Source: Oscillibacter sp.
Lineage (GTDB): Bacteria > Bacillota > Clostridia > Oscillospirales > Oscillospiraceae
DNA: 14,343 nt
Assembly: GCA_020025415.1 (NCBI GenBank)
Contig: JAHHSB010000018.1
Location: 1 to 14,343, forward strand
Direction: 5' to 3'
Position 1 is the stretch's first letter, and every line of letters begins with the position of its first letter. Under the pieces are notes generated by a model. That model saw only the letters and a list, made by a program, of their open reading frames with translations. It was not told the DNA's origin and searched no databases. The translations under genes and the position numbers were made by a program. Below are positions 967 through 9,521 of the stretch, piece after piece.

Positions 967-993
967 TCACTTTTTCCTTCCCTGCCATACAAT
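967..993 (+). promoter_or_regulatory. Candidate sigma-E promoter of the cotJ operon
   Basis: CATACAAT at 986-993 equals the sigma-E -10 consensus (CATACAnT). The -35 side is weak: TCACTTT at 967-973 keeps five of seven positions of KMATATT, but the 12-base spacer is short. Transcription would begin about 1000, ahead of the AAGGAGG at 1029-1035. cotJ in Bacillus subtilis is a mother-cell sigma-E operon, so the assignment fits. Confidence 0.5.
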
Positions 994-1048
994 GGAACAG
1001 CATGTGTTGATCATATGCATGCTAGAAAAAGGAGGTATGCATTCCCTT

Positions 1049-1495
1049 ATGGAAAACCCCAATACCAATGGGTGCGGCACTGGAAGCGGCTCCATGCCGG
1101 GCAGCTGCGCACACCTTGCTTTCCCATATATTCCCATGCAGGGCAATAATCCCGCCAAATACAGCAAGGCAGAAGCCCTGCAGACGGGCACCTTATTCCC
1201 TGGTCTGAATCTCCCCTTCCGGGCGGCGATCAATGCCAAAACCCAGATCGAAAACACCGCTCTGGCGGAGTTGATGGCACTGGATTTTGCCATTGACGAG
1301 CTGGGATTGTTCCTGACCACCCATCCGGACGATCAGGAGGTTTTGAATCTCTACTGGTCTTATATCAAGCTTGCCAAAGAAGGGCGGGAAAAATACCAGA
1401 AAATGTACGGTCCGCTGATGCAGACCGATATCACGGAGGACGGCTATCGCTGGCTGCAAGATCCGTGGCCCTGGGATGAGGAGGGAAACCACTGA
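1049..1495 (+). CDS. Fused CotJA-CotJB spore coat protein
   Basis: The CotJA and CotJB proteins are inner spore coat components encoded next to the CotJC catalase, made in the mother cell. This ORF (148 residues from 1049) holds both as one chain. Residues about 25-55 match CotJA, ending in the hallmark YSKAEALQTGTLFPGLNLPF. After a short linker, about residues 68-148 match CotJB: LAELMALDFAIDELGLFLTTHP, then a charged helix, K-M-Y-G-P-L, and the C-terminal DPWPW. The residues before the CotJA core are rich in G, S, N and P. The start is uncertain: AAGGAGG at 1029-1035 is 13 bases before this ATG, while an in-frame ATG at 1037 is only one base from it. The stop overlaps the cotJC start (TGATG), so translation is coupled. 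In Bacillus these are two genes. Confidence 0.82.
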   Translation: MENPNTNGCGTGSGSMPGSCAHLAFPYIPMQGNNPAKYSKAEALQTGTLFPGLNLPFRAAINAKTQIENTALAELMALDFAIDELGLFLTTHPDDQEVLNLYWSYIKLAKEGREKYQKMYGPLMQTDITEDGYRWLQDPWPWDEEGNH

Positions 1496-1731
1496 TGTTT
1501 GTCTATGAGAAAAAACTGCAATACCCGGTCAAAATCAAAAACACCAACCCCAAGCTGGCCTCTTTGATCATCAGCCAATACGGCGGCCCGGATGGCGAGC
1601 TGGGCGCTTCCCTGCGATATCTGAGTCAGCGCTATTCCATGCCCTATCCGGAACTGAAAGGTCTTCTGACCGATATCGGTACCGAGGATTCAAAATGCAC
1701 CGGGCAGGCTTTGCAGACGCTTAGAGCATAA
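1495..1731 (+). CDS. cotJC: CotJC spore coat manganese catalase, 5' part (interrupted by inserted element)
   Basis: CotJC is a spore coat protein of the non-heme manganese catalase family. Residues 1-64 are normal CotJC: MFVYEKKLQYPVK, then QYGGPDGELGASLRYLSQRY (E35 is an expected metal ligand), then GLLTDIGTE. The chain should continue E-L/F-x-H-L-E-M, but after GTE it becomes DSKCTGQALQTLRA and stops at 1731. The break is inside the 11-bp repeat at 1678-1688; downstream codons belong to the inserted element. The 14-residue foreign tail removes E65 and H68, so the 78-residue product should be inactive. The remaining codons are found intact at 9108-9521. The tail overlaps the converging recombinase gene by 11 bases. 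It starts in TGATG overlap with the CotJA-CotJB gene. I read this as an interrupted but restorable gene. Confidence 0.92.
   Translation: MFVYEKKLQYPVKIKNTNPKLASLIISQYGGPDGELGASLRYLSQRYSMPYPELKGLLTDIGTEDSKCTGQALQTLRA
1678..1688 (+). repeat. Left attachment site core (attL-like direct repeat)
   Basis: GGTACCGAGGA, identical and in the same orientation as 9108-9118. Flanking bases differ on both sides (c/a before, t/a after), so the shared core is exactly 11 bp. Here it encodes cotJC codons 62-64 plus two bases of codon 65. The left flank is host cotJC sequence and the right flank is element sequence. Confidence 0.88.
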
Positions 1732-3268
1732 AAATCCACCGGGTGGGCAGCGACTGCAAAACTACCTCCGTCCGGCCGTCTCCGTAGACCGTGATGTGAT
1801 CGAGCAGCTGGGCATAAAACGCATCATCCCCCCCGCCCTGGACGATCTGCTGTATGGCCGCGCGCACAGCCGCACCCTGTCCCTCTTCCCATGCGCCCTG
1901 CCTTTCCCGGGCCTGGGTCAGCCGATTTTCCAGGTCTGCGATCTCCCTGTCGCAGCAGCAATTGAAAAACTGAAAATCCGCTGGAGAAATGGCAGCATCC
2001 ATGTACGCTTCCAACGCACGCCGCTTTTTTTGCCGTTCCCGCTCCAGCTCTTCTTCCAGCCGGTGCTGTTGGGTGCCGCCCCCCTCCGCCGCCTGCTCCA
2101 TGGCGGATTCTGCCGCATGGACCAGGCGGCGGCTGATCTCTTCCCGATCCAGCTGTACCGATTCCACGCTTTGGCGTAAAAGCTCCATGGCTGTCTCTTC
2201 CCGCAGCTGCCGTCCCACCCGGCAGCCTCTCGGGATCTCCTCCCCGTCTTCCTGCAGTCCGGCACCTTCTCGGGTGGCCTTGGCGCAGCGCCACACCCGA
2301 TATGATGTCCCGGAGGCCCCTTGTTTCTTCCTGGCCAGAAAACTGCTGGCACATTCGCCGCACCGGATCTTCCCGGACAGCAGGTAACGGTTCCCCCGTC
2401 CTTTATCCGGCTTCCCCTGGCGGCTGCGCCGCTTCCGCTCCTGCTGGACCTGCTCCCACATATTCCGGTGAATGATGGGCTCATGGTGGTCCCGAAGGAT
2501 CACCAGTTCCTCTTGCCCTTGGTTGTACTTTTTCTCATGGGTCAGATAGTCCGGCGTATAGGTCTTTTTCTGTATCAGATCCCCGCAGTACTTTTCATTT
2601 TTCAAAATTTTCAGCACCGTGGCTGCCGACCATTTGCAGTTTCCCCGGCTGGACAAAACCTCTTTCGTCCGCAACTCCCGGGCGATAGCCCTGGCGCTCT
2701 TATGTTCATAAAGATACTGGTAAAAAATCCAGCGGACCACGGCGGCCCCCTCTGGTTGGACGGTCAAGGCCCCCCTTGCCACGTCGTATCCCAGTAAACA
2801 GCCGCCGAAAACAACCCCCTGCTCCATGCGGCGGGTCTGGCCCCACTTTACCCGCTGGGAGGTTTTTCGGCTCTCCTCCTGGGCCATGGAGGACATGATA
2901 GTCAGCCGCAGCTCCCCTTCCTGCTGCCCGGTATCGATGTGGTCGATAAGAAAAATAACCCGGATCCCCAGCCGCTGCAGTTCCCTGGTATATTGCAGGG
3001 TATCCAGCGTGTTGCGGGCAAAACGGCTGACCTCTTTGGTGATGATCAGATCTATCTCTCCCCTCCGGGCGGCGGCGATCATGGCGTTGAACTGCCGGCG
3101 CTTTTGGGTGCTGGTCCCGGATATGCCCTCATCAGCATAAATTTTCTGAAGTTCCCACTCTGGATTGCGGGCAATACACTCCAAAAAGTAGCGCTGCTGG
3201 CTTTCAAAGGAGTTTGCCTGATCATCCTGATTGGTCGATACCCGGCAATAGGCGGCCACCCGAAGCAT
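1721..3268 (-). CDS. Large serine recombinase (site-specific integrase/excisionase)
   Basis: Catalyses site-specific strand exchange through a serine-DNA intermediate. The 515 residues show, in order: the resolvase catalytic domain (about 1-145) with nucleophile S11 in AAYCRVSTNQ and arginines in KEVSRFARN (about 79-86); a Recombinase domain (about 155-265) with GYDV and KILKNEKYCGD; a zinc ribbon with C303, C306, C328 and C349; and a charged coiled coil (about 385-455). This is the full large-serine-integrase layout and length. The start is the ATG at 3268, preceded by AAAGGAG 7 bases away; a GTG directly before it is also possible. It overlaps the upstream 66-residue ORF by one base (TGATG), indicating coupled expression. 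Its 3' end is 33 bases from the left repeat, the usual place for an element's own recombinase, and SpoIVCA and SprA are the obvious functional analogues. All catalytic features look intact. Confidence 0.93.
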   Translation of the reverse strand: MLRVAAYCRVSTNQDDQANSFESQQRYFLECIARNPEWELQKIYADEGISGTSTQKRRQFNAMIAAARRGEIDLIITKEVSRFARNTLDTLQYTRELQRLGIRVIFLIDHIDTGQQEGELRLTIMSSMAQEESRKTSQRVKWGQTRRMEQGVVFGGCLLGYDVARGALTVQPEGAAVVRWIFYQYLYEHKSARAIARELRTKEVLSSRGNCKWSAATVLKILKNEKYCGDLIQKKTYTPDYLTHEKKYNQGQEELVILRDHHEPIIHRNMWEQVQQERKRRSRQGKPDKGRGNRYLLSGKIRCGECASSFLARKKQGASGTSYRVWRCAKATREGAGLQEDGEEIPRGCRVGRQLREETAMELLRQSVESVQLDREEISRRLVHAAESAMEQAAEGGGTQQHRLEEELERERQKKRRALEAYMDAAISPADFQFFNCCCDREIADLENRLTQARERQGAWEEGQGAAVRAAIQQIVQGGGDDAFYAQLLDHITVYGDGRTEVVLQSLPTRWIFML

Positions 3269-3468
3269 CACTCCACTCCTTTCTGTAAAGGCTTGCTACT
3301 TGTGCAGCATTCCCGCTCTATATATCTCTCGCAATTTTCCAGCTGTTCCTGATTCAAAATTCCTTGTCTTTTCAGTGCGTGGAACACCGCTTTTTCATAT
3401 ACCAGCAAAAATGCCTCCCTCGGAACATCTTCTTCCTCTCGTCTGAAAAGCTGCGGCGTTTTTCTCAT
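3268..3468 (-). CDS. 66-residue protein, candidate recombination directionality factor
   Basis: Not recognised as a named family. The product begins MRKTPQLFRREEEDVPREAF and contains two likely helices, LLVYEKAVFHALKRQGILNQ and EQLENCERYIERECC, joined by a G-I-L-N turn; the helix-turn-helix-like layout and high charge suit a small DNA- or protein-binding factor. A strong Shine-Dalgarno, GGAGG about 7 bases before the ATG, supports the start. The stop overlaps the recombinase ATG by one base, so the two are translated from one message in fixed order. In serine-integrase systems a small accessory protein of this size (SprB of SPbeta is 58 residues) switches the integrase from insertion to excision. 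That role is inferred from position and size only. It could instead be a transcriptional regulator of the module or a short-linker protein of the SHOCT-like type. Confidence 0.6.
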   Translation of the reverse strand: MRKTPQLFRREEEDVPREAFLLVYEKAVFHALKRQGILNQEQLENCERYIERECCTSSKPLQKGVE

Positions 3469-3490
3469 TGCGCCCCCTCCCTTCCGGAGG

Positions 3491-3519
3491 ATGGTATGCA
3501 GGGCCGATGCGGAACTTGC
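3491..3519 (-). promoter_or_regulatory. Candidate sigma-E-like promoter of the recombination module
   Basis: On the minus strand CATACCAT (3491-3498) differs by one base from the sigma-E -10 consensus CATACAnT, and GCAAGTT (3513-3519), 14 bases upstream, keeps five of seven positions of KMATATT. A start near 3484 would leave a 16-base leader just holding the Shine-Dalgarno. It lies between the terminator at 3549-3592 and the 66-residue ORF. If real, it would put excision under mother-cell control, as for spoIVCA. The match is suggestive, not proof. Confidence 0.33.
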
Positions 3520-3548
3520 TGGGCCATACACCGAAGCAGTCCCCATGC

Positions 3549-3592
3549 AAAAAAAGCAGAGGGAAAGAAACCGTTGGCTTCTTTCCCTCTGC
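3549..3592 (-). terminator. Strong Rho-independent terminator of the cargo operon
   Basis: Perfect 14-bp stem (3556-3569 paired with 3579-3592, GCAGAGGGAAAGAA arm) with a 9-base loop, followed on the minus strand by seven Ts (3549-3555). It is oriented to stop leftward transcription arriving from the helicase gene, before the recombination module. Confidence 0.85.
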
Positions 3593-3719
3593 CTGATCCG
3601 ATCACAAGCAGTTGCTTTCTGCGGCGGGGTGCTTTGTGGCAGCCATGAACGCATCTGCCTTTTCATATGGCCGCGGAAATCCTCACGAATGCCAGGGGTT
3701 CCAGCAGCGGCGGCATATT

Positions 3720-4081
3720 ATGCCATTGGATCAATTCAAACTGTTTGCGCGCATCGGCCTGCGGATTTATTTTGCCGTGCTGCTGCAGAGCTGGCCGGGA
3801 AAAGCGATTATATGAGTGCCACGGCGGGCGCTTCCCAATATATGACCTATGTGCTCACCTTTGGCTGTGCTTGGACACTCCAGGCCAATGTATGGCAGCG
3901 GATTTCCGACGCAAAAAACGTTGCCGACGCCCGGAAGATGACGGTGATGAGCTTTTTCGCCGATATTCCCCTGTATTTGATCGTGGTGTTTACCGGCATG
4001 GCAGAGATCACGATGTTTAACCAGCTGCCGGAGGGCGGGATCGTGACGGCGATTATGATGCATACCCTTGGCGAGTTCAAG
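3720..4081 (+). pseudogene. Sodium:solute symporter (SSS family) remnant
   Basis: Sense translation gives a membrane-protein fragment resembling the middle of sodium:solute symporters: YMTYVLTFGCAWTLQANVWQ, then RISDAKNVADARKMT (the family's Q-R-I-x-x-A-K-x-x-x-x-A-R motif), then FFADIPLYLIVVFTGMAEI and LPEGGIVTAIMMH. An upstream stretch in another frame, PLDQFKLFARIG followed by YFAVLL, looks like the preceding loop, placing a frameshift near 3797. Only about 115 residues of an expected 450-550 remain, with no start, no ribosome site and no C-terminus, so this is a decayed gene. It faces opposite to the neighbouring cargo operon and lies in its 3' untranslated stretch. The 635 bases between 3493 and 4128 hold only this remnant, the terminator and the candidate promoter. 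Confidence 0.6.
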
Positions 4082-4128
4082 CATTCAAATGCAATATATA
4101 AAGACGAGCGGCAAAATCAAGAGAAAAA

Positions 4129-6234
4129 TTATCTTTCCAGCTGCAGCTGTCCGGAGCGCAGGGCGGCGGATATGGCGATCCGTTTGACATCTTCCCCATC
4201 GAACACAATGATGGCGATGTCCCCGCTGCGGTTGACTACGACTCCGTGCCCAAAGGTCTTGTGCCGCACCAGCGCCCCGGGAATATAGTCCTTGGCAAGA
4301 TCAGCAAGGCGTCCTTTGTCCGGCTTCCTGACCGTCACAGGCTTGAGCGCCGGGGTCTCGGGCTTCGCTTTTGGCTTCTCCTTGGGCGGGAAGATTTCCC
4401 GGGAAAACGTAGATTCCAGCCCCACCTTCCGAAAGGTGACGATGTCCAGCTCTTGCCTGGCCCGGGTCATACCTACGTAAAAAAGCCGGCGCTCTTCTTC
4501 ATAGGTGTCTAGCTCATCCGGCTTGGCCTCCTGCTCCGGCAGGGCCTTGGGAAGCAGGCCATCTGCCACGTCCATCAAAATCACCCGCTCATATTCCAGC
4601 CCCTTGCTGGAGTGGATGGTGGAGAGCACCAGCGGGCACTCGGGGTCCGCTGAGCCCGCCTGTACCACCTGCCGCAGCTCATCCAACCGCTCCAGCAGTC
4701 TCTCCGGCGTAGGCTCCTGGGCACCCAAAGCCTCCAGAATATCCGCCTTGTGGGGCTCGCCGCCCCGCTCTTCCAGATACGCTCCATAGCCCATGAAATG
4801 AACAATCCGGTAAACCGCCTTGTCCGCCTGCTCATGCAGCAGGTTTTTCATATGGGTCTGCAAGGCCCGGCACTGCCTTTTCGTCCAGGAAGAGGAGGCG
4901 GTCGAGGCCGCGATATGCTCCAGGATGGGCTCTCCCGTCTCCTTTGCCCGGGCCGCGGCCTCTTGGGCCAGGCTGCGGCTGATCCCCGCTCCCAGCTTGT
5001 AGTAGATATTTAAAAATCGCTCTCCATCCAGCGGATCCCGGGCAAAGCGGATGATGTCCGTAATGTCCCGCACCACCCGGTTGGAAAAAAAGAGGCTCTC
5101 TACCTGGCGGCAGCGATAAGGCAGTCCCGCCCGGTCCATCAGGTCGATCAGTGGCAGGGCGCTGTCATTGTCCCGATATAAAACAGCGGTCTCCACCGTG
5201 CAATTCTTCGCCAGGCGGCTGAGATAACGGTACTGCCCTAGCCGGTCATAGACGGAGATCTCACGGATCTCCGGTCCGCTGCCCCGGGTGGCCTTCATGT
5301 GCTTGGGCCGGCGGTTTTGATTCTTCTGGATAAACCGGTCCGCCGCATCTACGATCTGCCGGGTGGAACGATAATTCTGCTCCATATAGAGTACTTTGGC
5401 GTTGGGATAGACCGTGTCAAACTGGGTCAGAGCCTGGGGATAGGCGGCTCGGAAGCCGTAAATGCTCTGATCCTCGTCCCCCACCATGAAAAGATTCCCG
5501 CTCCGCCCGGCCAGCAGTCTGATAATGGTATGCTGGATCTTGGAGGTATCCTGGGCCTCATCCACGCAGAAATACCGGTAGCGGGCCTGGAAGTCCCCCA
5601 AAATCTCCGGGTACTGCCGCAGGATCTGGAGGGCATAGACCATCTGGTCGTCATAGTCCATCAGCTGCCGCTCCCGCAGTGCCCGGCTATAGGCCTGAAA
5701 AAAGGCGGGAAAATCCACCCCTTCCAGCTCCACCTGGGCCAGTTCCTCTCTTTTGAGCATCTGGTTTTTAGCGTAGGTGATGGCAGTCTGCAAGCTCTTC
5801 ACCGTACTCTCCGTGGCAAAGTCGTTGCTCTGGGTCCGGTAAAGCTCCCCGATGAGAGCGCTCTTCTGGCTGCCGTCTTCCAGCAGGCGGAAGGCTGTGC
5901 GTCCGCAGACCCGTTCATAATGACGGATGATTCGGCTGCATACACCGTTGATGGTGCGGAATTCCAGCGCCTGGGCAGCATCTTCTCCAAAAAAAGCGGC
6001 GAAGCGGGCCTGCATATCCCGGGCGGCAGCCACGGTATAGGTAGTGGTGAGGATCCGCTCTGCCGGGATCTGACACACATAGCGCATATATCCCAGCCGG
6101 GTGACCAATACCGTGGTCTTCCCGCTGCCAGGCACCGCCAGCAGCAGCACCGGCCCCTCCACCGTCTGGACCGCCGCCTCCTGCTGGGGATCCAGCTGAA
6201 TGGAAAATTGTTCTTTGAATTGAGAAAAGTCCAT
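4129..6234 (-). CDS. UvrD/PcrA-family ATP-dependent DNA helicase
   Basis: Superfamily 1A 3'-5' DNA helicase used in repair and in clearing replication conflicts. In 701 residues the ordered motifs are visible: Walker A AVPGSGKTT (33-41), motif II VDEAQDT (224-230), motif III GDEDQSIYGFR (252-262), motif IV QNYRST (286-291), motif V STIHSSKGLEYERV (538-551) and motif VI FYVGMTRARQELDI (585-598). A tudor-like C-terminal module follows (about 652-701, ALVRHKTFGHGVVV then FDGEDVKRI), as in PcrA/UvrD. All catalytic residues look intact. It is shorter than PcrA (about 730-740), so I assign the family but not the pcrA name. It is the last gene of the five-gene operon, 46 bases after yaaA, with GGGAG before its ATG. 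Its place inside a recombinase-bounded element is unusual; a second chromosomal PcrA is likely elsewhere. Confidence 0.9.
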   Translation of the reverse strand: MDFSQFKEQFSIQLDPQQEAAVQTVEGPVLLLAVPGSGKTTVLVTRLGYMRYVCQIPAERILTTTYTVAAARDMQARFAAFFGEDAAQALEFRTINGVCSRIIRHYERVCGRTAFRLLEDGSQKSALIGELYRTQSNDFATESTVKSLQTAITYAKNQMLKREELAQVELEGVDFPAFFQAYSRALRERQLMDYDDQMVYALQILRQYPEILGDFQARYRYFCVDEAQDTSKIQHTIIRLLAGRSGNLFMVGDEDQSIYGFRAAYPQALTQFDTVYPNAKVLYMEQNYRSTRQIVDAADRFIQKNQNRRPKHMKATRGSGPEIREISVYDRLGQYRYLSRLAKNCTVETAVLYRDNDSALPLIDLMDRAGLPYRCRQVESLFFSNRVVRDITDIIRFARDPLDGERFLNIYYKLGAGISRSLAQEAAARAKETGEPILEHIAASTASSSWTKRQCRALQTHMKNLLHEQADKAVYRIVHFMGYGAYLEERGGEPHKADILEALGAQEPTPERLLERLDELRQVVQAGSADPECPLVLSTIHSSKGLEYERVILMDVADGLLPKALPEQEAKPDELDTYEEERRLFYVGMTRARQELDIVTFRKVGLESTFSREIFPPKEKPKAKPETPALKPVTVRKPDKGRLADLAKDYIPGALVRHKTFGHGVVVNRSGDIAIIVFDGEDVKRIAISAALRSGQLQLER

Positions 6235-6280
6235 GATATGCTCCCAAATTGCCCTGGCGGGACAGGGAAATCACCGCCCC

Positions 6281-7045
6281 TCAGTTCCAGGGCGTCCTGC
6301 TTTTCGAGAGCAGGAATACATACGTTTCTTCATCTGAGTGTTCCGGGGCATAGACATAGTTGAGCCGGGAAAAGCCCCGGAGCGTCTCCGGACTCTCCGC
6401 CTGGGTCTCTGCCAAATAGCGGACCATCTCACCCCGGGCCATTTTGCAGAGAGTTCCCTTTTCCACGATCTTGCCGTCTTGCTCCTCCCCGAATACGCAG
6501 GTGATGAGCCGGCTCCCTGGTTTTTGATACCGGGATACACAGAGGCTGTACTCCCGGGAGGCCAAATTGATCACGCAGTCCGTTTCCCGGAAAATATCAT
6601 CGGCAATCAAGGCATTCCAGTAGCTGTAAAGTCCTTTTACATCACCAATATTCAACTTGGCCTGCATCTCCAGACGGTAAGGTGTCACCCCGTCAAAGGG
6701 CCGCAGTACTCCATATAGGCCGGAGAGGATGCGCAGATGCTCCTGCACATAGTCCAGCTCCTCTTGGGTAAATATGCCGGGTGCCATGTACTGATACTGG
6801 ATCCCATCATAGGCCAGAATAGCCGGGGTCAACTGCGTGCGAAGATCCGCGGTCTTCAATCGCTCCACATTCAATGCGGTAATGGCGTCATTGCATTTCC
6901 AGAGCTTTTTCAGTTCTTCCCGGTTCATAGACTGCAACTTACTGTAAAGTATTTCAGCTTGCTTGATAAAGCGGGGCAATGATTTCCATGGAAGCGTATC
7001 GCTGTCCTGATTCATTTTCTTAGCTGGAGAAATGATGATCCGCAT
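6281..7045 (-). CDS. yaaA: Peroxide stress protein YaaA (DUF328/UPF0246)
   Basis: YaaA lowers free intracellular iron and limits Fenton damage during hydrogen peroxide stress in Escherichia coli; structural work indicates a DNA-binding fold. The 254-residue product has the family N-terminus MRIIISPAKKM and the conserved blocks PAILAYDGIQYQYM, LRILSGLYGVLRPFD and PYRLEMQAKL. A C-terminal part follows with the usual NLASREYS, the ITCVF strand and KMARGEMVRYL. Length equals the family's normal 245-260. It starts 9 bases after the rhodanese stop, with GAGG 7 bases before the ATG, so it is clearly part of the same operon. A peroxiredoxin two genes upstream fits a shared oxidative-stress role. Confidence 0.95.
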   Translation of the reverse strand: MRIIISPAKKMNQDSDTLPWKSLPRFIKQAEILYSKLQSMNREELKKLWKCNDAITALNVERLKTADLRTQLTPAILAYDGIQYQYMAPGIFTQEELDYVQEHLRILSGLYGVLRPFDGVTPYRLEMQAKLNIGDVKGLYSYWNALIADDIFRETDCVINLASREYSLCVSRYQKPGSRLITCVFGEEQDGKIVEKGTLCKMARGEMVRYLAETQAESPETLRGFSRLNYVYAPEHSDEETYVFLLSKSRTPWN

Positions 7046-7054
7046 CGCTGTTCC

Positions 7055-7447
7055 TCACTCCACGTCATAGGGCCAATCCTGGATCCCGCCAAACTCGTAA
7101 ACCTGGGTATATCCCAGATCCGCCAGAGTCTGAGATGCTGTTTTGCTGCGGTTTCCGCTGCGGCAATAGACTAAAACCACTGTGTCCTTGTCTGGGATAG
7201 CCTCTGCTGCGCTCTTTTCATCAATCGTATCCACCGGCAGCAGCAAGGCTCCGGGAATGTGGCCGCTGCCGTACTCGTCCTGCTCCCGGACGTCCAGGAG
7301 CACGGCCTCCTCTTGCTCGTCCATCATAGTCTTGGCCTCCTCCGCCGTAATTTGTTCATAGGCGGAATTCTCTCCTCCCTGAGCGGCGGAACCGCAGCCG
7401 GTCAGCAGCAGCGCCAGGGCCAAAGTGGCAATGATTCCTCGTCTCAT
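7055..7447 (-). CDS. Rhodanese-like domain lipoprotein
   Basis: Single rhodanese domain, expected to handle sulfane sulfur or persulfides through a cysteine on the outer face of the membrane. The 130-residue precursor starts MRRGIIATLALALLLTGCGS, a lipoprotein signal with lipobox L-T-G-C18, so mature protein begins at C18 and is membrane-anchored. The rhodanese fold follows, with LLDVREQDEYGSGHIPGA (about 50-67), the active loop CRSGNRS with catalytic C95, and a final EFGGIQDWPYD. The length suits a single-domain rhodanese. It starts 3 bases after the bcp stop, inside the operon, and may support peroxide or reactive sulfur resistance with the neighbouring peroxiredoxin. The physiological sulfur donor cannot be told from sequence. 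Confidence 0.9.
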   Translation of the reverse strand: MRRGIIATLALALLLTGCGSAAQGGENSAYEQITAEEAKTMMDEQEEAVLLDVREQDEYGSGHIPGALLLPVDTIDEKSAAEAIPDKDTVVLVYCRSGNRSKTASQTLADLGYTQVYEFGGIQDWPYDVE

Positions 7448-7450
7448 AGC

Positions 7451-7912
7451 TCACTCCCCGGCCAGATAGGCCAGGATCTCCCCGGCGTTGGTATCGGGCT
7501 TCACCTTGGGCATTACCTTTTCAATAACGGCCTCCTCGTTGATAAGATAGGTGGAGCGCACCACGCCCATGCTCACCTTGCCGTAGAGCTTTTTCTCCTG
7601 CCAGACGCCGTAAGCCTGAATGGCCTGCAGCTCCGGGTCGGAGAGAAGCACAAAGGGCAACTCGTATTTCTGGGCAAATTTCAGGTGAGAAGCCACAGAA
7701 TCCTTACTGATCCCGATGACTGCTACATTCCTGTTCTGGAACTCCCCATAGCTTTGGGCAAAGGCACAGGCCTGACGAGTGCACCCAGGGGTATTGTCTT
7801 TGGGGTAGAAATACAGCACCACTTTCTTTCCCAGAAAATCCGAGAGACGAACCGTGTTGCCGTTCTTATCGGACAGAGCAAAATCCGGAGCTTTGGTTCC
7901 AACTTCCAGCAT
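7451..7912 (-). CDS. bcp: Thioredoxin-dependent thiol peroxidase Bcp/PrxQ
   Basis: Peroxiredoxin that reduces hydrogen peroxide and organic hydroperoxides with electrons from thioredoxin, in the cytoplasm. The 153 residues match the Bcp/PrxQ subgroup: APDFALSDKNG at the N-terminus, then LYFYPKDNTPGCTRQACAF with peroxidatic C44 and a resolving C49 five residues later, then VIGISKDS and SDPELQAIQAYGVW. A late R-S-T-Y-L-I motif closes the active site. Length is standard. AAAGGAG precedes the ATG. It follows the alcohol dehydrogenase by 20 bases and is followed after 3 bases by the rhodanese, so it is co-transcribed with both. It is one of two peroxide-defence genes in an element that interrupts a catalase gene. 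Confidence 0.95.
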   Translation of the reverse strand: MLEVGTKAPDFALSDKNGNTVRLSDFLGKKVVLYFYPKDNTPGCTRQACAFAQSYGEFQNRNVAVIGISKDSVASHLKFAQKYELPFVLLSDPELQAIQAYGVWQEKKLYGKVSMGVVRSTYLINEEAVIEKVMPKVKPDTNAGEILAYLAGE

Positions 7913-7932
7913 ATCGCATTCTCCTTTTCATT

Positions 7933-8973
7933 TCAGTTGTCCGGGGTGATGGCCACCTTGATGACTCCATCCCGCCGGTGCTCAAAAAGGTCGTAAGCCT
8001 CATCAATCCGACTTAAGGGATAGGTATGGGTAATCAGCGGCGTAGTGTTCAGCTTTCCCTCTGCAATGAGCCGCAGAGTCTGGTCACAATCGCAGCCATC
8101 CACTCCGCCGGTCTTAAAGATCAGATTCTTGCCGTACATCTCGGGCAGGGGCAGCGTCTGGGGCCCGTCATAGAGGGCCACCACCGTGACGATGGCGTTG
8201 GGGCGGGCGCACTGCCAGGCCATGCGGAAGGTATCCGGACTGCCTGCCACCTCCAGCACCACATCCGCGCCGCCGTGATCACTGTGAGAGCGTACAAACG
8301 CCTCCACCTCCTCCGGCCCCACGGTCAGGACCTCCGGGTAGTGTTCCCGGACAAATTGGAGTCGATAAGGGTCAATATCACAGACGATGATCCGCTTAGG
8401 ATTATACAGCCCCACGCACTGTAAAGTACAGATGCCTGTCGGTCCAGCGCCGATGATCAGCACCGTATCCTCTTCCCCAATCTCCGAAATCTTGGCGCCC
8501 CAGTAACCGGTGGCCAGCACATCGCCTACCAGCAGGGCCTGCAGGTCCGTGACAGAATCAGGGATCTTATTCAGTCCCTGGTCGGCATAGGGCACGCGGA
8601 CATACTCCGCCTGTCCCCCGTCGATCCGGCAGCCCAGCGCCCAGCCGCCGTTGGGATCCGTGCAGTTGTTGACCCAGCCGTGGCGGCAGAAAAAACACTC
8701 CCCGCAGAAGGTCTCTACATTGACTGTCACCCGGTCACCGGGACGCACATGGCTCACTGCCACCCCCACCTGTTCCACAACGCCCACCATCTCGTGGCCC
8801 ACGGTGGTGCCGGGAACGGCCCGGGGTACAGAGCCGTGCTTGATGTGCAGATCACTGGTGCAGATGCTGCTCAGGGTCACCTTCACAATGGCGTCCCTAG
8901 GCTGGAGCAGTACCGGCTTGGGCTTGTCCAGCAGCGCAAAATGCCCTTGTTGAACATAGGTATAGGCCAGCAT
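7933..8973 (-). CDS. Zinc-dependent medium-chain alcohol dehydrogenase
   Basis: NAD(P)-dependent oxidoreductase of the MDR superfamily, interconverting an alcohol or polyol with its aldehyde or ketone; the substrate is not predictable. The 346 residues show the catalytic-zinc set C38, H60-E61 (GHEMVGVV) and probably D151. The structural-zinc site is C90-x2-C93-x2-C96-x7-C104. The Rossmann motif GAGPTG (175-180) is followed by an acidic residue after strand beta-2 (VCDID), favouring NAD. Length is normal for the family. AGGAGG stands about 8 bases before the ATG. It is the first gene after the strong promoter at 9014-9042 and heads the operon ending with the helicase. Alternatives within the family are sorbitol-, threonine- or butanediol-dehydrogenase-like enzymes. 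Confidence 0.9.
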   Translation of the reverse strand: MLAYTYVQQGHFALLDKPKPVLLQPRDAIVKVTLSSICTSDLHIKHGSVPRAVPGTTVGHEMVGVVEQVGVAVSHVRPGDRVTVNVETFCGECFFCRHGWVNNCTDPNGGWALGCRIDGGQAEYVRVPYADQGLNKIPDSVTDLQALLVGDVLATGYWGAKISEIGEEDTVLIIGAGPTGICTLQCVGLYNPKRIIVCDIDPYRLQFVREHYPEVLTVGPEEVEAFVRSHSDHGGADVVLEVAGSPDTFRMAWQCARPNAIVTVVALYDGPQTLPLPEMYGKNLIFKTGGVDGCDCDQTLRLIAEGKLNTTPLITHTYPLSRIDEAYDLFEHRRDGVIKVAITPDN

Positions 8974-9013
8974 GATAAATCCCTCCTGTTAAAAGCTGAT
9001 GATGTACCTTTTC

Positions 9014-9042
9014 ATTATAGTCGGGCAGCGCTGCTGCGTCAA
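9014..9042 (-). promoter_or_regulatory. Strong sigma-A promoter of the cargo operon
   Basis: On the minus strand TTGACG (9037-9042), exactly 17 bases, then TATAAT (9014-9019): five of six and six of six consensus positions. It lies inside the element, 66 bases from the right repeat, and reads leftward into the alcohol dehydrogenase gene. The element therefore brings its own vegetative promoter and does not depend on the cotJ promoter. Confidence 0.85.
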
Positions 9043-9107
9043 CGCAAAGGCCGGCCTTGCCAAGGTTCCACCTGGCCTTTTCACCGGCTCATCATGACTC
9101 CTCGCTA

Positions 9108-9118
9108 GGTACCGAGGA
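9108..9118 (+). repeat. Right attachment site core (attR-like direct repeat)
   Basis: GGTACCGAGGA, identical to 1678-1688. The left flank is element sequence and the right flank resumes cotJC. An inverted repeat TCCTCG (9099-9104) and CGAGGA (9113-9118), separated by 8 bases, is centred on the GG that opens the core. This suggests half-sites for a recombinase dimer with GG as a possible crossover dinucleotide. Confidence 0.88.
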
Positions 9119-9521
9119 ACTGGGCCACCTGGAAATGATCGGAACCATTGTCCACCAGCTGACCCGCAATCTGACGGAAGAGCAGATCAAAGAGTCCGGC
9201 TTTGCCCCGTACTTCATCGATCACACCACCGGCATCTACCCCACTGCCGCCTCCGGTTCCCCTTGGAACGCCGCAGGAATCGGCGTCAAAGGCGATGTGA
9301 TCGCCGACCTTACGGAAGATCTGGCAGCAGAGCAAAAAGCCCGGGTCACCTACGACAACATTCTCCGAATGTCTGACGATCCGGATGTGACCGATGCCAT
9401 CCGCTTTTTAAGAGCTCGGGAGGTCGTTCATTTCCAGCGCTTTGGCGAAGGCCTGCGCCTGGCCAAGGACCGGCTGGATGAAAAAAACGTCTACTATATG
9501 AACCCTGCGTTCGACCACTGA
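9108..9521 (+). CDS. cotJC: CotJC spore coat manganese catalase, 3' part (needs excision to be expressed)
   Basis: From the repeat onward the sequence encodes the C-terminal 137 residues of CotJC without a break to the stop at 9521. It opens G-T-E-E-L-G-H-L-E-M, restoring the E-x-x-H metal motif. The four-helix-bundle segments and the second ligand set follow: E136 in DLAAEQKA and E166/H169 in REVVHFQRF (numbering of the rejoined protein), plus the family signature GIYPTAASGSPWNAAGIGVKG. Joined to codons 1-61 of the 5' part it gives 198 residues, close to the 189 of Bacillus subtilis CotJC. An in-frame ATG at 9057 exists in element sequence but has no Shine-Dalgarno, so independent translation is unlikely. 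The absence of stops or frameshifts argues for selection on the rejoined gene rather than decay. A terminator follows 12 bases after the stop. Confidence 0.92.
   Translation, partial: GTEELGHLEMIGTIVHQLTRNLTEEQIKESGFAPYFIDHTTGIYPTAASGSPWNAAGIGVKGDVIADLTEDLAAEQKARVTYDNILRMSDDPDVTDAIRFLRAREVVHFQRFGEGLRLAKDRLDEKNVYYMNPAFDH

Follow-up and report, generated by a model that had tools for sequence, protein, structure and literature searches.

In the window, the whole 14,343-base stretch of Oscillibacter sp. DNA that we analysed, a 7,430-bp integrative element interrupts cotJC, the gene of a spore-coat manganese catalase, at codons 62-65. Judging from its ends, the element was almost certainly integrated by serine recombination and could be exactly excisable, and excision is likely to occur as part of sporulation. 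We give a probability of about three in four to developmental excision, in which a small open reading frame (ORF) that we call orf2 and the recombinase, both driven by a sporulation sigma factor, would remove the element in the mother cell and rebuild cotJC. The original prediction of a developmentally controlled element stood in its structural part, that is, a recombinase-bearing element in a spore-coat gene, exact restoration of that gene, and an arrangement like that of skin and spsM-SPbeta, while excision itself and its timing in sporulation are things that we infer.

The interrupted gene and the ends of the element

As predicted, the cotJC frame, which starts at 1495 on the forward strand, breaks within codon 65 after 1688 and resumes at 9108. 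The 5′ exon (1495..1688, codons 1-64 and part of 65) and the 3′ exon (9108..9521, from its repeat copy to the stop codon) are on the same strand and cover consecutive regions of the Mn_catalase family PF05067. The 5′ piece (ORF 1495-1731) matched profile positions 1-66 (E 6.1e-20), and the 3′ piece, within ORF 9057-9521, matched positions 61-197 (E 7.2e-31). The claimed exact 11-bp direct repeat, GGTACCGAGGA, was found at both junctions (1678-1688 and 9108-9118) and nowhere else on either strand of the window. It is the longest match between the compared junction regions, and the chance of an 11-bp exact match between two stretches of about 40 bp is roughly 40 x 40 / 4^11 = 4e-4 by hand arithmetic. 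The unit from repeat to repeat is 7,430 bp, and joining the two copies gives 597 bp, or 198 codons and a stop without an internal stop, which agrees with the CotJC that had been predicted. The gene broken by the insertion is probably a mother-cell sporulation gene; cotJC is listed among the core sporulation genes of B. subtilis with sigma-E as its regulator (PMC3416734). The G+C content of the element is 0.57, and those of the flanks are 0.56 and 0.57.

A search of relatives for an uninterrupted cotJC, as had been proposed, was successful. The closest intact relative of the joined CotJC is P0121, a protein of 198 aa with 3 differences in 198; it is known as a protein only, without its DNA, and could come from a strain lacking the element or from an excised copy. 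In genome G248, CwlD, cotJAB, cotJC and ligA are in the same order as in the window, cotJC is continuous (93% identity), and ligA starts 158 bp past the matched cotJC end.

The inner ends of the window element together form a palindromic integrase-like attachment site (attP), in which 16 of 22 arm positions match around a GG core at 1678/9108. This score was matched by 0 of 5000 shuffles, with a mild bias in the test since the core position was free within 14 bp and the best was kept. The two forward-strand copies of the repeat are attL (1678..1688) and attR (9108..9118). The end analysis covered 25 spanned elements at codons 62-65 with a sensible join, 2.8 to 19.2 kb long, the window included. 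All 25 joins are stop-free through the compared stretch of 31 residues; the joins were chosen by CotJC similarity and this result alone is therefore biased, and the palindrome is the more independent test. The inner-end palindrome was significant by shuffling (p<0.01, median 15/22 arm matches) in 23 of the 24 elements that have a GG.A core (GG, with an A two bases on). Because this core is common to 24 of the 25 elements, the crossover probably occurs at the GG at 1678-1679 and 9108-9109, in the codon of Gly62. Recombination between the end repeats would restore the frame in all 25 elements with a sensible join, the window's included. The exceptions to the core and palindrome pattern are L174, which has no GG.A core and whose recombinase is elsewhere in the tree, and L186, with only 6/22 arm matches. 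The sequences just inside the element differ between loci.

No sensible join at codons 62-65 was found for L183, L011, or the second break of L184/L068. At L011 (genome G011), the 5′ half is 94-95% identical to that of the window; its candidate 3′ piece is 64% identical and has a stop, and it may be a different copy.

A recombinase family and four insertion sites

At one end of the element is a large serine recombinase of 516 aa (1721..3271, reverse strand), whose 3′ end points towards the adjoining attL. It has the Resolvase, Recombinase and Zn_ribbon_recom domains and the family-conserved catalytic serine, and it matches PHROG 95 (integrase); the recombinase is intact, in agreement with the original prediction. 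Genomes were scanned with an alignment of 23 recombinases and the best 80 of 555 confirmed candidates were examined, from records labelled Oscillospiraceae, Lachnospiraceae, Christensenellaceae, Ruminococcaceae and Pelotomaculum, among others. A cotJC piece is present on 78 of these 80 loci. The exceptions are L061, whose genome has a full-length cotJC, and L040, whose genome has separate cotJC pieces elsewhere. Among the genome loci examined, this recombinase family is overwhelmingly found in cotJC. The set scoring above 500 bits comprises 82 recombinases (80 from the loci, an additional one in L032 and the one in the window), and for 70 of them a cotJC piece with its break near codon 64 is no more than 900 bp away. 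The 3′ end of these recombinases points towards the 5′ piece in 64 cases and towards the 3′ piece in three, while the gene start points towards the 3′ piece in another three; for ten more recombinases the cotJC piece is further off or overlapping in the same locus. The catalytic serine is present in 81 of the 82, the remaining one being gapped there, and the median ratio of nonsynonymous to synonymous substitution rates (dN/dS) of the family is 0.23 (401 pairs).

Two related recombinase genes are in tandem at L032. At L051, L071, L078, L084, L085 and L185, a recombinase of the codon-64 clade adjoins the 3′ piece of cotJC, not the 5′ piece. A palindromic core was considered as an explanation of the right-end recombinases and dropped, since the shared core GG is not palindromic. 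Of 71 IMG/VR loci that have a related recombinase, 11 also have a piece of cotJC (tblastn E<=0.01), nine of these 11 within 900 bp of a recombinase above 500 bits. Since these loci carry cotJC pieces beside related recombinases, phages or predicted proviruses may use the cotJC site too.

cotJC is interrupted at four sites, namely codons ~32, 62-65, ~137 and ~176. By alignment to solved manganese catalases, with the ligand positions of the Lactobacillus enzyme as reference, the metal ligands of CotJC are presumably E35, E65, H68, E136 and H169. Three of the insertion sites are within about 3 codons of a ligand and the last is some 6-9 codons beyond one. In a tree of 169 recombinases, 16 of the 17 codon-32 sequences form one clade (support 1.0), the four codon-176 sequences another (1.0) and the two codon-137 sequences a third (1.0), and most codon-64 recombinases are in a clade of 91 (0.99) that includes a few without an adjoining cotJC piece. 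L185 (codon 32) and L174 (codon 64) were placed apart from the others of their own sites, which points to independent arrivals. Two ordered breaks on one contig were found in G018, G020, G022, G040 and G041, in G040 without a clear join at the second break, and the pieces in G030, spread over several contigs, are consistent with three breaks. Cultured carriers in the survey include Flavonifractor sp. An10 (L023/L178/L179) and Anaeromassilibacillus sp. An250 (L025/L190), each with two breaks, as well as Oscillibacter valericigenes An907 (L030/L181) and Pseudoflavonifractor phocaeensis An901 (L001/L189).

Prevalence was counted by hand among the matches listed, to which the weakest matches of the class sample do not belong; pieces on different contigs were counted as split, and some genomes may be incomplete. 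The class sample, centred on G023, had 147 genomes, 104 of them with a cotJC match. In 59 the gene is intact, a single unbroken match running from residue 1 to residue 181 or beyond; for 18 of these, one or two stops are listed inside the match, many of which are probably the gene's own end. The gene is split at a site in 29; some of these calls depend on one listed piece, for example in two genomes with the 5′ half only (G297, G311) and in four that start at residues 22-27 with the first piece unlisted (G319, G326, G333, G398). Three more stop near codon 176, perhaps merely at a divergent end (G293, G356, G374), four have contig edges or a frameshift (G300, G339, G340, G415), seven have a distant paralogue only, and two matches are too weak. 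The split fraction is thus 29/88 evaluable genomes, or 28/87 without G023, which was chosen because it is split. The genus sample was centred on the intact G248, and 62 of its 71 genomes had a match: 24 are intact, 28 split, seven have a short terminal piece only and three a distant paralogue only. This gives a split fraction of 28/52 evaluable, or 35/59 counting the short pieces. For five of the 28 the call depends on one piece (G484, G479, G468, G482, G015), and eight genomes have two or more breaks (G430, G472, G458, G435, G486, G449, G022, G469). In G313 and G397, both halves of cotJC are on one contig, separated by ~157 kb and ~118 kb respectively, and there may be very large insertions or rearrangements in these two genes.

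Probable excision in the mother cell and its alternatives

In the window, orf2 (66 aa, 3268..3468, reverse strand) immediately precedes the recombinase. In an ORF search, 54 of the 82 recombinases had a small ORF of 48-90 aa immediately ahead of them, although by eye the ones at L068 and L075, at least, look mistaken. A profile made from twelve of these ORFs matched 27 of 28 genomes with a split cotJC and none of 12 with an intact one. Eight of the 27 supplied profile rows (G001, G002, G003, G014, G023, G032, G037, G039), and the independent score, from split genomes outside the profile, is 19/20. In each of the 27 genomes a match shares its contig with a cotJC piece, at a distance of no more than about 5 kb, and G025 has a second match. 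Searches of Pfam and NCBIfam placed orf2 in no family and gave chance-level matches only. By its linkage, orf2 is a candidate recombination directionality factor.

CATA is the -10 element of sigma-E and sigma-K promoters. A CATA 20-50 nt before the start was found for 41 of 54 orf2 genes, against 84 of 518 other gene starts in the same loci, and 34 of 44 CATA occurrences are 28-32 nt before the orf2 start. The longer motif CATANNNT precedes 36 of 54 orf2 starts against 32 of 518 control starts; in both comparisons the start-picking rules were similar but not identical, and related loci are not independent trials. CATANNNT also occurs within 420 bp before the recombinase in 60 of 74 cases, against 36% of random windows, and it precedes cotJAB by no more than 330 bp in 51 of 63 loci, a count made without a control. 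In the window, a motif search placed a -10-like CATACCAT about 30 nt upstream of orf2 (3491..3498, reverse strand, position read from the sequence), and a -10-like CATACAAT was seen by eye upstream of the cotJ operon (986..993, forward strand). The linkage of orf2 to split genes and the CATA-type -10 fit with excision in the sporulating mother cell.

The att structure suggests that the element arrived in circular form and that a serine recombinase recombined its attP with the conserved GGTAC..GAGGA of cotJC. In the mother cell, as the promoter motif suggests, a sigma-E/sigma-K-type factor would transcribe orf2 and the recombinase, and orf2 would act as the directionality factor. Once the recombinase had excised the element at the GG core, the restored cotJC would be translated into the coat catalase. 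The spore chromosome would retain the element, and thus the split gene would be inherited.

The halves of the gene show little sign of decay. No in-frame stop was found in 56 distinct split 5′ halves or in 21 distinct split 3′ halves; the count covers ungapped matches only (setting aside 12 gapped for the 5′ half and 6 for the 3′ half), and the halves derive from matches at the protein level, whose ends tend to fall at stops, which somewhat favours this outcome. Between L012 and L014, the 5′ half has 20 synonymous and 0 nonsynonymous differences. Single pairs such as this one suggest constraint after insertion, the pooled pairs being saturated. SpoIVA was present in all 33 genomes tested (29 with a split cotJC, 4 with an intact one). 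Among 41 genomes with cotJC pieces, four (G038, G039, G040, G042) also have a full-length copy with 62-64% identity, and the remaining ones have at most distant paralogues.

Several results weigh against developmental excision. For this genome, of which a single contig was analysed, neither an excised junction nor the circle was seen. The dN/dS medians of the split halves, 0.21 for the 5′ half (296/1540 usable pairs) and 0.22 for the 3′ half (18/210 usable pairs), indicate somewhat less constraint than the 0.11 of six intact genes (9 and 3 pairs), and the values for the halves include evolution before insertion, with synonymous sites saturated in most pairs. The ORF search found no small ORF at 28 of the 82 recombinases, and the orf2 profile had no match in the split genome G021. 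A fixed -35 promoter pattern was at chance (2/74, against 2% of random windows); the -35 is not clear-cut, and sigma-E is indistinguishable from sigma-K. No clear CATA promoter was found for the recombinases of the other sites, where CATANNNT within 330 bp, counted without a control, occurs at 13/21 codon-32, 1/4 codon-176 and 1/2 codon-137 recombinases. On viral contigs, 10 of 19 related recombinases above 500 bits have no cotJC piece within 900 bp; either cotJC is not the only target of the wider family or these contigs end too soon.

The alternative that deserves most attention, unlikely as we judge it, is that cotJC is a conserved, growth-dispensable attB that serves as a safe harbour. The gene would then be off in carriers, and excision would be rare and not timed to sporulation, or else mixed in the population, as is reported for yin in yabG (PMC10747680). 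The use of four sites in the same gene by several recombinase lineages is in line with this, as is the composition of the class sample, where the hand count of 91 genomes with cotJC or its pieces gave 59 intact, 29 split and three unclear. Some recombinases are also far more alike than the surrounding cotJC (L013/L017), a probable sign of horizontal transfer and mobility, and toxin-antitoxin-like cargo could hold an element in place. Against this alternative, neither half decays, the mother-cell-type -10 motif often precedes the orf2-recombinase unit, well above control starts, and a split gene in 28 of the 52 evaluable species of one genus is hard to square with plain gene loss.

It is much less probable that each half of cotJC makes a useful protein of its own and that rejoining is unneeded. 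Both halves do stay open, and the element adds a short tail to the 5′ half in the window; however, by the alignment and the ligand numbers, the break falls among the metal-binding motifs and neither half would have the full active site. The variation just inside the element between loci and the att site formed by its ends also speak against separate products. Least probable of all is a misassembled or chimeric contig. The window is a single 14,343-base contig, but the same arrangement recurs in many independent genome records, named isolates among them, the flanks match G248, and the ends carry the att palindrome. The assembly artefact that the original prediction had named as a refuting outcome is therefore very unlikely.

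In G006 and G023, the 5′ halves and the recombinases are near-identical (98%) and the 3′ halves are very different (5′ half L006 and 3′ half L212 versus L030/L181), which would fit a joint exchange of the recombinase and the 5′ exon.

Cargo and relation to known elements

Beyond orf2, the window element carries on its reverse strand a UvrD/Rep-type helicase (4129..6234; PF00580, PF13361), the peroxide stress protein YaaA (6281..7045; PF03883), a rhodanese-domain protein (7055..7447; PF00581), an AhpC/TSA peroxiredoxin, presumably of Bcp type (7451..7912; PF00578), and a zinc-type alcohol dehydrogenase (7933..8973; PF08240, PF00107). A remnant resembling a solute symporter was seen by eye on the forward strand (3775..4085), in the translation of ORF 3491-4288. 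Pfam was run on seven ORFs of the element; one had no match and the other six are the recombinase, the helicase, YaaA, the rhodanese, AhpC/TSA and the alcohol dehydrogenase. With no phage structural or packaging genes among them (PHROGs were run on the recombinase only), we rejected a prophage on gene content. We also rejected the helicase-to-dehydrogenase block as the ordinary neighbourhood of cotJC, since G248 has ligA directly after cotJC. A UvrD-like helicase and an alcohol dehydrogenase related to the window cargo are adjacent elsewhere in G248 (L206), and no recombinase match was found within 20 kb of this pair. Upstream of cotJC in the window, cotJA and cotJB form a single fused ORF (992..1495, forward strand, PF11007 and PF12652 in one ORF), whose true start is probably 1037 or 1049 by eye, and the same continuous CotJA-CotJB match occurs in several relatives.

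The cargo survey scanned 128 of 243 ORFs in 23 of 26 listed elements; L046, L180 and L183 were not part of it, the window contributed its recombinase only, and the simple ORF caller can pick wrong-strand ORFs. The recurrent Pfam families were glycosyltransferases (4), AhpC/TSA peroxiredoxins (3), YaaA (2), rhodanese (2), AbiEii toxins (2), relaxases (2) and ABC transporters (2). In the list of the 25 commonest PHROGs, those that have a name were integrase/invertase, ParB-like, glycosyltransferase, transporter, sigma-factor, SbcC-like and primase/helicase, with no capsid or tail family. L005 carries UvrD, AhpC/TSA and alcohol dehydrogenase in the same order as the window, and L001 carries YaaA, rhodanese, AhpC/TSA and alcohol dehydrogenase. 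The element at L067 is only 2.8 kb and has an ORF that resembles hemerythrin by eye.

Skin, in sigK of B. subtilis and C. difficile, is a serine-recombinase element in a mother-cell gene that is rebuilt by excision, and in C. difficile the 72-aa directionality factor CD1234 is under sigma-E and SpoIIID (PMC5025042). Like skin, the cotJC element has its own serine recombinase and interrupts a mother-cell gene that its excision would rebuild. Unlike skin, it targets cotJC and not sigK, its candidate directionality ORF is directly before the recombinase, and no phage genes were seen by Pfam in the window element. Gin, in gerE of B. cereus ATCC 10987, is 28.6 kb and has three recombinase genes (PMC5595907). 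It shares with the cotJC element a non-phage nature, a serine recombinase with a partner protein (the candidate orf2 in the cotJC element), and a sporulation gene as target, while the window element, at 7.4 kb, has a single recombinase and interrupts a different gene in a different bacterial group. SPbeta in spsM also interrupts a mother-cell spore-envelope gene rebuilt by precise excision, as we propose for cotJC, but it is a prophage and the window element is not; vfbin (spoVFB) and vrin (spoVR) are named in the same paper, and its text does not mention cotJ (PMC4191935). Yin, in yabG of C. botulinum, is prophage-like, was observed as a circle, and is described as unique to one strain (PMC10747680). 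In yin, as in the cotJC element, the recombinase adjoins the 5′ part of the broken gene and a repeat is present at both ends, whereas cotJC elements recur in many species. In C. difficile R20291, a CotJC homologue is directly beside attR of prophage phi027 (PMC11222575). The window element would work like skin, gin and SPbeta, by target is a member of none of them, and is one of many widespread elements that intervene in cotJC. In the titles, abstracts and passages searched in the open literature, with subscription papers and preprints outside the search, we found no description of cotJC as a target of such elements.

On balance we favour the view that cotJC is a developmental DNA-splicing hot spot of Clostridia. 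Within ~600 bp, four sites at or near manganese-binding codons would be used, mostly by their own recombinase lineages, with up to two or three breaks per genome, and over half of the evaluable species of one gut genus would need one or more excisions in the mother cell to make the coat catalase. In one lineage, the recombinase would be accompanied by a small directionality factor of a new kind and by a promoter active in the mother cell, and cargo for oxygen or peroxide defence is present in some elements of this lineage. cotJC may accordingly be annotated as fragments in many genomes. If this view is true, sporulation gene splicing would be common in gut spore-formers and concentrated on one coat enzyme, and would no longer amount to isolated oddities of Bacillus and of a few strains of Clostridium. 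A new directionality-factor family and GG-core integrases are predicted, which are possible tools, and several cultured commensals would be hosts in which to ask why such elements persist.

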